Assembly (NCBI GenBank): GCA_947174035.1
Contig: CAMWHH010000009.1
Location: 1 to 11,612 of the forward strand
DNA: 11,612 nucleotides
Direction of reading: 5' to 3'
Source of the DNA: an uncultured Mycoplasma sp.
GTDB lineage: Bacteria > Bacillota_I > Bacilli_A > Mycoplasmatales > Mycoplasmoidaceae
Below, piece by piece: positions 5,504-11,612 of the stretch (its first letter is position 1; every line of letters starts with the position of its first letter). The notes below the pieces were generated by a model. The model searched no databases, was not told the origin of the DNA, and saw only the letters and a list, made by a program, of their open reading frames with translations. Position numbers and translations under genes: made by a program.

Positions 5504-5534
5504 AAAAAATAGCATTACTAAAATGCTATTTTTT
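5502..5534. terminator. Bidirectional rho-independent terminator
   Basis: A 13-bp hairpin AAAAAATAGCATT / AATGCTATTTTTT (arms 5504-5516 and 5522-5534, 5-nt loop) lies directly after the HAD stop. It has A-runs on the left and T-runs on the right, so it can stop transcription from both convergent genes. It includes the TAG stop (5526-5528) of the minus-strand membrane protein. Confidence 0.85.
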
Positions 5535-5969
5535 AAATTTAAAGATTGATTTTTTTTCAACGTTTCCTTCATTGTAAGAAAATGATGATTGATTATTATT
5601 TCTATTTAATCTTCTTAACAACAAAAAGAAAACCACTGCTAAAATAACTCCAAGAATTAAAAAAGATATTCCTAAAGCAAACATTGAATAACTTGCATAA
5701 ACTCATTGTGTATTAGTTTCATTTTGGTAGTTTGCAACATAATCATTATGACTTTTTAAGTATTCGTCAAACCCAGGACCACCTTTTCAAGCAGAAACTA
5801 AACTTTGATAAGCTTGAAAATTATTGAAATAAACTCCTGCTAATGCAGCTCCTGCAACAAAAAAAGCAACAGCTACAATAAAACCAAAAATAATTCCAAC
5901 TTTTGATCAAGAAATAGCTTTTAAATTTATACTCTTTTTTACTTTTTCTTTTTTAACATTACTATTCAT
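5526..5969 (-). CDS. Two-helix membrane protein, unknown function
   Basis: 147 residues, found only when TGA is read as Trp (three such codons: 21, 61, 89). A basic N-terminus (MNSNVKKEKVKK) leads into a hydrophobic helix at about 24-48 rich in Ala, Gly and Val. A polar segment of about 45 residues follows (FQAYQSLVSAWKGGPGFDEY and on), then a second helix at 96-118, and a basic, Asn-rich tail ending KKSIFKFKK. Positive charges at both ends suggest both termini are cytoplasmic and the middle loop is outside. I do not recognise a family. It lies 44 nt after rpmA, beyond that gene's terminator, so expression would need read-through or a local promoter; only a weak GGATAAAA precedes the ATG. An in-frame TAA three codons upstream fixes the start. 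Confidence 0.8.
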
Positions 5970-8507: not shown

Positions 8508-10562
8508 TTAATTCTTTTTATTTTTGCGAATTGGTTTAATAATTTTAATACCAAAATAAAAAAGAATGAAAAAAAGTCAAAAAGCAAACACACAACCAAT
8601 TGCAATAAAAACAATATTAATTGTTCCCAATCCGTCTTCAGGTTTGTCAACTGTTAAAATTGTAAAAATCATTCCAAAAAAATTAATAAACCCAATTAAA
8701 GTAGCAACAATGTAGGCAAATAAAACTGTTCCTCTTTCTTTGTCTTTTTTTGATAATTCATCTGTTTGAATGATTTTCATTCTTAGTGATTCAATAGATT
8801 TTCTTAGATTAATTTGTTCATCAATCTTTGAAACAATTGGTTTAATTTGACTCATTCCATAGTAGTCATCATACCAACTGAAAGACAAGTCTTCTAGTTT
8901 TTTAATTTTGTTTTTATGGTAAGTGTTTTCATTATTTAACTGATCATAAGTGAAATCTTTTTCAACACTAACACTTTTTCATAATCTTGATTGAATAAAA
9001 ATCTGTGCCCATAAATAGTTTTCATACAAACCAGTTGGAACATAATCATCATTTGTATATAATTTATCATTTTTAACTTTAGTGTTATTTTTAACTATAA
9101 ACATTGAGGGTTCATCACCTACAAAAGACATATAGTCAAAGTTAAATTCACACTTTGTTTTAATAATCATATCAATAAAAGATAGTGTTAATTTTCTATT
9201 GTTAATATTGGTTTGTTTAATTGTTTCTAATAATTGAGAATATTCAATAAAATTACCTGTAGCTAAATCCATTCCAAATAATTCTGGAAAAATTACCATT
9301 AAATATAGTATTTTTAATTGGAAATCATCATTAAAAACATCTTCTGCATTTGCATATTTTAATTTATTTTCTTTACAGTAAACTTCAACAGAAAAAATTG
9401 GCATACCAAAAGAAAATTCATATTGATTTTTTTGTAAATTTAATGTTTCAATTAATTCTTCAGCAGTTTTTATTTCTTTATATTTTTTATTTTTCTTACT
9501 TGCAAAATAAGTGTTGTTTAAAAACTTTGCTAATTCATAAAAATCAGTTTCAACATTTTGATTGGGATCTTCTTTAATGATTGATGGCTTATCCAATAAT
9601 CTTAAAATAATTTCTGGATTCTCATTAGTGAAATAAATTTTTAATTCTTCATACAAAGATAAAGTTATTAGATTAATAATTAAAATTGAAAAGAATAATT
9701 CATTTTCAAAAAATTCTTTTTCTTTTTCGCTTATTTTACGATTAGAAAAATATTTTCTATTAATGAAATAAATTCAATTTTCTCTTAAATCATTAATTGT
9801 AATTTCTTCATAATTTAATTTCTTTTTTTGTTTAATCTTTCCTTTTTGGTTTTGTTTTAAATTAGGTTTAGGTTTTTTAGAAATAATTTTGAACTCTTCA
9901 TTTCCATTACTAATTACAGTTAACAAATTTTCTAATGACAATGGATATAGTTGTTTAGACATAAAGTGTTTAATTAATGAATGCAAGTAAACTGAATTCA
10001 TCATTTGTTCAAACTCGTTTGTTTTGTTTTCAGTAATTTGGTTAAAATTGATTGAAAAACCACCTGACAACATTTTTGCTTCTTCTTCTAAAAAGAAAGA
10101 TAGCTGAATATTTGAAAAGTATTTTTTTAAATATGAATCATTATTAATTTCGATTAAAAAATCATATTTTCTTTCATTGTCAAATTTTGATTTATTAGCA
10201 TGAGCATAAAAGTTATTTTCAAAAGCTAAAGATTTTATAAAAACGGGTTCATTGAATTTATTTTTTTCAAAGCAATAAAGTAAATCATTGTTTTTAGATC
10301 CTGTTTTTGAAACAATTTTTCTTAATAAAGAATTTAACATTAATAAAATTTTTGAATTTTTTGTTAAACTATCTAATTCATTGAATTTTTCCATTTCATC
10401 TTCATCAAAGTTTTTTTGAATTTTGGGAAGAATTTTATTAGCAAAAGCTTTGTTTGAATAATTAGATAAACTTTCAAAAAACTTCTCATTAATATTTTCA
10501 ATGTAAAAAGGTCAGATATTTTTAACTTTTATACCATTGTATTTTGATTTATTTTTATTCAT
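8508..10562 (-). CDS. Large protein with C-terminal double membrane segment, unknown family
   Basis: 684 residues in one frame once four TGA codons (Trp17, 263, 528, 662 region) are read through; two other Trp (518 in NYLWAQ, 563 in SWYDDYYG) are TGG, the only TGG in the window. No signal peptide. The first 660 nt encode a mixed, Lys/Asn/Phe-rich region, followed by a basic linker at 229-248 (KKPKPNLKQNQKGKIKQKKK). A hydrophobic patch at 288-303 (LFFSILIINLITLSL) is short for a membrane span. Residues 330-560 match the upstream gene product. WYDDYYG at 563-569 precedes a charged helix and two membrane helices at about 612-638 and 648-672, and a basic tail. I do not recognise the family. Start is set by a perfect AAAGGAGGT 6 nt upstream, overlapping the stop of the paralogue 13 nt before. 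Probably cytoplasmic with a C-terminal membrane anchor. Confidence 0.88.
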
Positions 10563-10568
10563 AATCTA

Positions 10569-10577
10569 ACCTCCTTT
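10569..10577 (-). promoter_or_regulatory. Full-consensus ribosome binding site between the two paralogues
   Basis: AAAGGAGGT on the minus strand, 6 nt before the ATG at 10562; its first As belong to the TAA stop (10578-10576) of the upstream paralogue. It is the best Shine-Dalgarno in the window, fixes the start of the 684-residue protein and implies coupled, efficient translation of the pair. Confidence 0.85.
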
Positions 10578-11612
10578 AGTAATATTGATTTTTCTTTTTC
10601 TTTCCAAAAAACAGAGGAACAAAAACGATGTATAGTAAGATTAAAAAAAGTAATAATGCAAAAAAACTTCCAATCCCAATTACAACTAGATTAACTACAG
10701 GAACATTATCAGGTTGTGAAGATTTAACTGTTAAAATTGAAAAAATCATTGTGAAGAAATCTAAAATTCCAAAAGTTGTTGCTGAAACAAAAGTTGCAGC
10801 CAAATTTTTTCTTTCTTTTCCCTTCCCATACAGTTTATCCTCTTTAGTAATTTTTTCTTTTAGAAACTTATTTAAACTGTTAAAGTCATAAAAAGAATCT
10901 ATTTTTTTAATAATGTTTTTAACTTGCATAATTCCATAATAATCGTCCAAATTAGTAAGTCTTAATGTTTCAAGTTCTGATAAATAATTTCTAAGTTTTC
11001 AAGGTTCTTTAGATTTAGTTTCTTGCAAAACATCTTCTATATTTTGTAATCTTCAAATCAAAGTTTTTCCATATATAAAAGATCATAAATAATTGTTAAA
11101 AATTGAATCTTCTTCATATAAATAAAACTGTTCATCTAAAATAGCATTTTTAACCTTACTAGTTATTAAATCAGGTTGGTTTTTAATAATAAATGCACTA
11201 AAAGATGCATCAATAAAAGTTACATAATTGTAGTTTCACTCACAAATATTTTTGTAAACTAAATCTTTTACTAACTTATTTCATGAATCATCAAAATTAA
11301 CAGATGAAATATTTTTTAAAAATAAATCATAGTTAGAAAAATCTGCTGTTAATAAATTAATTCCTAAAACATCTGAATCAAAGGCCAATAAAAATAAAGT
11401 TTTTAAATCTTTTGAATTTGCAAAAATATCTTCATAATCATTTAAAAAAGGAGTGTTAATATTACGATTGATTTCATAAATTGTTGAAATTGAACCAAAT
11501 GATTGGTTTTCCAACCGATCATAACTTATCAATATTTTTAAAGCATCTTCAGCACTATCAATATTTTTTATTTTTTCTTTACCAAAATAATAATATCTAG
11601 ATTTTAAAAGAC
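10576..11612 (-). CDS. Paralogue of the downstream 684-residue protein, C-terminal 344 residues
   Basis: The gene enters from the right edge; its start is outside. 344 residues are visible after reading five TGA codons as Trp. It aligns along its whole visible length with the downstream gene: RYYYFGKEKIKNIDSAEDAL against TYFASKKNKKYKEIKTAEEL, LKTLFLLAFDSDVLGINLLT against LKILYLMVIFPELFGMDLAT, NYLW followed by another Trp ten residues on in both, LDDYYGIMQVK against YDDYYGMSQIK, KERKNL against KERGTVL, and FFTMIFSILTV against FFGMIFTILTV. Two membrane helices near the C-terminus (about residues 270-296 and 305-333) end in a basic FGKKKKNQYY tail. It contains the only in-frame CGG arginine codon I found (11515-11517). 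Function unknown; a tandem duplication is evident. Confidence 0.88.

Follow-up and report, generated by a model that had tools for sequence, protein, structure and literature searches.

The stretch of DNA analysed here (the window; 11,612 nucleotides, the entire contig CAMWHH010000009.1 of assembly GCA_947174035.1) originates from an uncultured Mycoplasma sp., whose genome sequence comprises 787,487 bases in 139 contigs and is 79.7% complete. Two related genes lie in tandem on its minus strand. The gene P0001 (positions 8508..10562) encodes a protein of 684 amino acids; of the upstream gene P0002 (10576..11610) the C-terminal 344 codons are present, the 5' part being located beyond the contig end. 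Since the contig stops there, only the C-terminal half of this protein is seen; its full-length relatives have about 620–690 amino acids. Both frames were fragmented when read with code 11 and became open with code 4, where TGA stands for Trp (four such codons in P0001). A gap of 13 nt (10563..10575, minus strand) separates the genes, and a Shine-Dalgarno sequence, AGGAGG, follows directly on the TAA of P0002, 7 nt before the ATG; the strong coupling and joint unit described in an earlier note on this sequence were upheld. A search of the source genome with P0001 yielded P0001 itself and its neighbour P0002 and no other matches. No plasmid match was obtained, and a plasmid origin of the pair was rejected.

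The earlier note had considered both proteins as unrecognised, which no longer holds. P0001 matched the NCBIfam model MPN338 (NF045750) with 778 bits, at a cut-off of 430, over residues 11–680 (profile positions 1–641). The best family for the P0002 fragment was MPN337 (NF045749), with 354.6 bits over profile positions 316–637, compared to 330.8 bits for MPN338; the score is below the curated MPN337 cut-off of 600 bits, as expected for a fragment. In a phylogenetic tree P0002 was placed inside the MPN337 group with a branch support of 100/100. Both proteins carry the protein-database tag PF28262. The pair therefore belongs to families which are already named, MPN338 and MPN337 (MG242 and MG241 in Mycoplasma genitalium), none of these names implying a function. 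In gene order, length and paralogy the M. genitalium pair resembles that of the window, without any essential difference. Matches to DUF2207_C, SUR7 and further weak Pfam entries were all under the cut-off. The literature which was covered, including few subscription journals and no supplements, did not link the two families to CorA-like proteins, and among the publications listed for the attachment organelle, Mg2+ transporters and neighbouring MPN genes none was seen to deal with the pair.

P0001 and P0002 are paralogues: residues 8–315 of the 344 visible in P0002 aligned with residues 352–657 of P0001 at 31% identity (BLASTP; 316 columns, E 6e-37). A shared C-terminal module, as proposed before, is present, except that the aligned stretch does not reach the 340 residues claimed for it. 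Every motif listed for the module was found, namely (T/S)AE(E/D), G(M/I)(D/N)L, NYLW with a second Trp ten residues later, DDYYG, the KER segment and FFxMIFxILTV. The occurrence in 22 genomes, together with the score of P0001 far above a curated cut-off, shows that the pair is real beyond chance.

A third type is represented by a protein of Mycoplasma mobile, with nearly equal scores to the MPN338 and MPN337 models (748 and 745 bits), and by at least five relatives of this protein. In a maximum-likelihood tree MPN337, MPN338 and the M. mobile group were each separated by a branch support of at least 100/99; the tree is unrooted, contains 43 rows without the N-terminal MPN338 fragment P0060, and the program warned that the MPN337 branches are long. 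This division into three groups is compatible with a duplication after divergence from the M. mobile line, without proving it. The MPN337 protein of M. genitalium is 20–22% identical to seven full-length MPN337 proteins of the Malacoplasma type and its MPN338 protein is 35% identical to P0001; judged by these identities, MPN337 looks like the faster-evolving copy.

Structures of both families were predicted singly, with code 4 translations, using alignments which combined MPN337 and MPN338 paralogues. The AlphaFold2 model of P0001 (mbffc6b0835e3; 54-row alignment) had a mean predicted local distance difference test score (pLDDT) of 78.7 and a predicted template modelling score (pTM) of 0.78; for a full-length MPN337 protein (genome G001; 43-row alignment) the values were 77.7 and 0.77. 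Both models show much the same order of elements, as had been suggested from the sequence: a long helix leads from a large cytosolic part into a first transmembrane helix (TM1), which is followed by a second one (TM2), the two forming a C-terminal membrane hairpin. In P0001 two alpha/beta parts (strands at 8–21, 132–176 and at 389–396, 470–502) precede helices 512–542, 550–559 and 571–584, a 49-residue helix (586–634) which includes TM1, a turn of 12 residues and a helix (647–683) with TM2; the C-terminal helices of the MPN337 model comprise residues 578–629 and 640–678. Model confidence for P0001 drops to 63 at residues 631–640, the end of TM1. In the window TM1 of P0001 (residues 612–638, a continuation of helix 586–634) corresponds to positions 8649..8729 and TM2 (residues about 650–672, with a basic tail after it) to 8547..8615; the respective segments of P0002 are located at 10726..10806 (residues 269–295) and 10633..10689 (residues about 308–326), all on the minus strand. 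Exactly two C-terminal hydropathy peaks were found in 47 of 65 rows, three to five in 17 and none in one. The mean charge in those 47 rows was +1.9 before TM1, -1.0 in the loop and +5.3 after TM2, and therefore both ends are predicted to be cytosolic (N-in/C-in). Two C-terminal membrane helices, the first of which continues a stalk helix, with cytosolic ends, would be the arrangement of CorA.

This resemblance was moderately supported by fold comparisons. With the MPN337 model, ranks 1–19 of a Foldseek search against the PDB were all CorA chains (probability 0.54–1.00, best E 1.8e-3), and the next row, which was not a CorA, had a probability of 0.25. For the MPN338 model CorA appeared at ranks 2, 3 and 4 (probability 0.69–0.87); a PR-10/Bet v 1 fold was rejected for this protein, its probability being at most 0.35 among the best 50 rows. 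VIA-align listed CorA, MRS2 and ZntB for both models, and CmaX (7nh9) for MPN337. By structure alignment residues 500–664 of MPN337 were placed on residues 163–349 of Thermotoga maritima CorA. Features in common with CorA, MRS2 and ZntB are, by prediction, the cytosolic alpha/beta part, helices before the stalk, a stalk running into TM1, a short loop, TM2, a basic tail and the N-in/C-in orientation. Unlike those proteins, the mycoplasma pair has no GxN filter, consists of two paralogues which are kept together, contains a long extra N-terminal part and lacks a Pfam match. The general layout is similar also in the RMD1/DUF155 group, in which an alpha/beta part is followed by a helix and a C-terminal TM segment, and membership there would imply a role in organisation instead of transport. 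We consider such an assignment most improbable; DUF155 (PF02582) gave no match to P0001 or P0002 at E up to 1, but in genome searches its profile matched nothing at all, controls included.

Sequence profiles were compared as well. In global mode, a comparison of the 54-row profile with 17 CorA sequences of the class yielded P 8e-5, versus at least 0.027 for 17 decoy families; under another setting P was 0.0028. For the separate clades the values were P 4e-4 for MPN337 (reversed controls 0.05–0.06) and P 0.0019 for MPN338 (reversed controls 0.012–0.037); the M. mobile group showed no signal (P 0.012, reversed controls 0.008–0.011). In this clade-wise comparison CorA was better than reversed CorA in three of four tests. 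Against four CorA proteins of the same mycoplasma family P was 0.058 for all rows, 0.036 for MPN337, 0.013 for MPN338 and 0.001 for the M. mobile group; with a wider CorA set the respective values were 0.0026, 0.0004, 0.014 and 0.0038. CorA exceeded its reversed counterpart in all eight tests of these two sets, the M. mobile group with the wider set being nearly a tie. The fragment P0060, an MPN338 sequence, was counted among the MPN337 rows of the profile and column tests; it contributes no letters to the TM columns, and the profile test was unchanged without it. When 156 single sequences served as decoys, ranks one and five (P 0.016 and 0.04) were taken by CorA homologues lacking GMN; three such homologues had been missed by the GMN filter, the third of which was not among the best six. 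Pfam PF01544 did not match P0001 or P0002 at E up to 1, nor was it among the best 25 of 67 families matched by 43 members. A search by sequence for solved relatives, with an alignment led by MPN338, produced two chance rows only (E 0.6 and 6.7).

The GMN motif is called universally conserved in a CorA structure paper (PMC3629940). Its lack in the pair, as stated by the earlier note, was borne out in the family alignment; for column counts rows more than 95% identical to another were removed (65 to 62). TM1 of MPN338 ends in FFGM(V/I), with GM in 34 of 38 rows and Val (27) or Ile (11) as the next residue. In MPN337 the end is mostly DF(F/L)TxV, the Gly position being occupied by Thr (15) or Asn (2), and in the M. 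mobile group GxN was not found at the end of TM1. FFGM was aligned with the FYGMN region of CorA in one full-length alignment, at low confidence. Because GMN is the defining mark and was looked for without success, the pair is not filed as CorA; of the likeness suspected earlier, the fold has moderate backing.

TM1 of MPN338 has an invariant face, A616, A620, G624, N627, M631, T634 and V638, each of which was found in 38 of 38 rows. Of the eight TM1 columns that do not vary, seven fall into a sector of 80 degrees; an arrangement as good as this was reached in 127 of 200,000 random draws. The codon of Asn627 is located at 8682..8684 (minus strand). In the same column MPN337 proteins have an acidic residue (15 Asp and 2 Glu among the 17 rows with a letter), which in P0002 is Asp284 (10759..10761, minus strand), and the M. 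mobile group has Asp (4) or Val (2). The invariant face may line a pore or merely pack helices. The split between Asn and acid in the two paralogues suggests that MPN338 and MPN337 face each other.

From these data we tentatively favour, at odds which we put slightly short of even, that the pair is a divergent CorA-like, probably hetero-oligomeric channel for divalent cations with an altered filter. In its favour are the fold comparisons, the conserved face of TM1, the distribution of MgtE and CorA relative to the pair (see below) and the induction of both M. genitalium genes by a metal chelator (PMC6968530). This view is weakened by several observations: none of the 38 MPN338 rows has an Asn after GM, the overall superposition of the MPN337 model on CorA is poor, and the support from sequence profiles is weak. 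Loss of GMN could also mean loss of transport, in which case a CorA-fold complex would conduct no ions and serve as a regulatory or mechanosensing membrane protein. This appears somewhat unlikely, since the small or polar face of TM1 has been retained without variation and the 22 genomes with the pair gave no match to MgtE or CorA.

Those 22 genomes were found among 320 of the order and belong to one family (3 of its 11 genera, and 3 of 50 genera of the order); 19 of them are at least 90% complete. No member was found beyond the family in 296 genomes of the class, in agreement with the lineage restriction which had been assumed. The two genes are direct neighbours on one strand in 19 genomes. 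Contig breaks hide the arrangement in one genome (G003), and in another (G005) three pieces are seen because contigs break one gene. In two related genomes the genes are separated by 6.6–6.7 kb, with other genes in between (G298, locus L072, 4630-15141; G299:C1:462505-472852), and the MPN337 copy of G299 contains an in-frame TAA. The gene ffh follows the pair in the window and in three further genomes (loci L063, L066 and L076); most loci of the Mycoplasmoides type have a different, common set of neighbour families. Since neighbours differ between genomes, the pair appears to act as a unit of its own. In M. genitalium it is followed by a membrane protein of 226 amino acids and a UvrD-like helicase (function assigned by reading), as described for MG_241/MG_242.

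The carriers (Malacoplasma, Mycoplasmoides and M. mobile) are largely gliding or organelle-bearing mycoplasmas, and the proteins might anchor the internal scaffold of a gliding machinery or terminal organelle in the membrane. We consider this unlikely; the gliding machine of M. mobile is not known to be related to that of Mycoplasma pneumoniae. Also, the response of M. genitalium to metal chelation (PMC6968530) does not resemble what would be predicted for an anchor. According to the same paper, chelation by 2,2'-bipyridyl raised the expression of MG_241 9-fold and of MG_242 6-fold, chaperones and proteases were induced too, and two TM segments as well as co-transcription with uvrD were noted for the two genes. 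The reported co-transcription, with the joint induction of dnaK, clpB and lon (PMC6968530), would fit a membrane protein for general envelope or protein stress which is co-regulated with chaperones and uvrD. This explanation is decidedly unlikely when the loci are compared: in seven of the eight loci showing the uvrD-like family, this family and the pair run in opposite directions, and no site resembling the controlling inverted repeat of chaperone expression (CIRCE), with up to four mismatches, was detected upstream of the pair in 17 loci scanned, the upstream region being cut off in two. CIRCE control of the pair was rejected on the latter grounds. One locus (L074) has a CIRCE-like site with five mismatches 175 bases before the pair. 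The sole perfect CIRCE element was found in M. genitalium (L069:2325-2351), before a frame of 798 amino acids about 3.5 kb from the pair.

Within the family, 95 genomes were compared: 22 contain the pair, 28 MgtE and 4 CorA over the cut-off, with no genome in two of these groups; none of the three was found in 41 genomes, 38 of which belong to two genera. With genomes treated as independent, the probability that pair and MgtE fail to overlap by chance is 1.3e-4; by genus it is 0.06. In a tree of Ffh from 30 genomes, which is based on a single gene and has long branches, three changes are required to explain the genera with the pair, and well-supported branches force two or more of these. The P-type cation ATPase domain PF00689 is present in 77 of the 95 genomes and in 21 of the 22 carriers. 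One genome consisting of a single contig (G010) contains the pair and gave no match to MgtE, CorA or PF00689, the only transporter families searched. Two genera (g4, 6 of 6 genomes, and g10, 32 of 36) match neither MgtE, CorA nor the pair, and 39 of their 42 genomes have the P-type ATPase domain; since all three are unmatched there, another route for Mg2+ is expected in these genera.

Two further genes of the window, both on the minus strand, may be mentioned. The gene at 1812-2177 encodes a protein of 121 amino acids that has a hydrophobic helix at its N-terminus and a domain with weak similarity to the glucose enzyme IIB (EIIB) of the phosphotransferase system (E 1e-11 to glcB, far under the cut-off). 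It has a single Cys, near the end of the domain; the Cys which is usually phosphorylated in EIIB seems to be absent. The other gene (5526-5969) encodes a membrane protein of 147 amino acids, in which two hydrophobic segments were recognised by eye; it matched no family above the cut-off.

If the proposed channel exists, MPN337 and MPN338 would together build a single membrane complex of CorA-like design. Each subunit would have a large cytosolic alpha/beta part, helices resembling the willow helices of CorA, a long stalk helix passing into TM1, a short loop on the outside, TM2 and a basic tail in the cytosol. The subunits would assemble, probably with each other, and a hetero-oligomer of these putative subunits is plausible. 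TM1 would line a central pore, its small or polar face directed inward and the Asn of MPN338 level with the Asp or Glu of MPN337; the cytosolic parts could sense metal and gate the pore, which would let Mg2+ or a divalent transition metal enter in those lineages that gave no match to MgtE or canonical CorA. A similar case could be Mrs2 and Lpe10 of yeast, two related proteins of the CorA type in one membrane, one of which is said to modulate the channel of the other (PMC9276622). These are mitochondrial members of the CorA superfamily; the mycoplasma proteins differ in being encoded by a tandem gene pair and in lacking the motif.

A more far-reaching version, possible but doubtful, would make the pair the missing uptake channel for divalent cations in Malacoplasma and in Mycoplasmoides, M. 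genitalium among them. This heteromeric pore of the CorA type would have dropped GMN and would contain a ring of Asn (MPN338) and a ring of Asp or Glu (MPN337) instead; a tandem duplication of a single-subunit ancestor, like the form persisting in M. mobile, would have given rise to it, and it would take the place of MgtE. The genome of M. genitalium is among the smallest of any culturable organism. If the reading as a channel is right, a metal channel could be named for organisms that gave no match to MgtE or CorA, a pore of the CorA type would operate without GMN, and the function-free annotation of MG241 and MG242 would become testable by one complementation assay.
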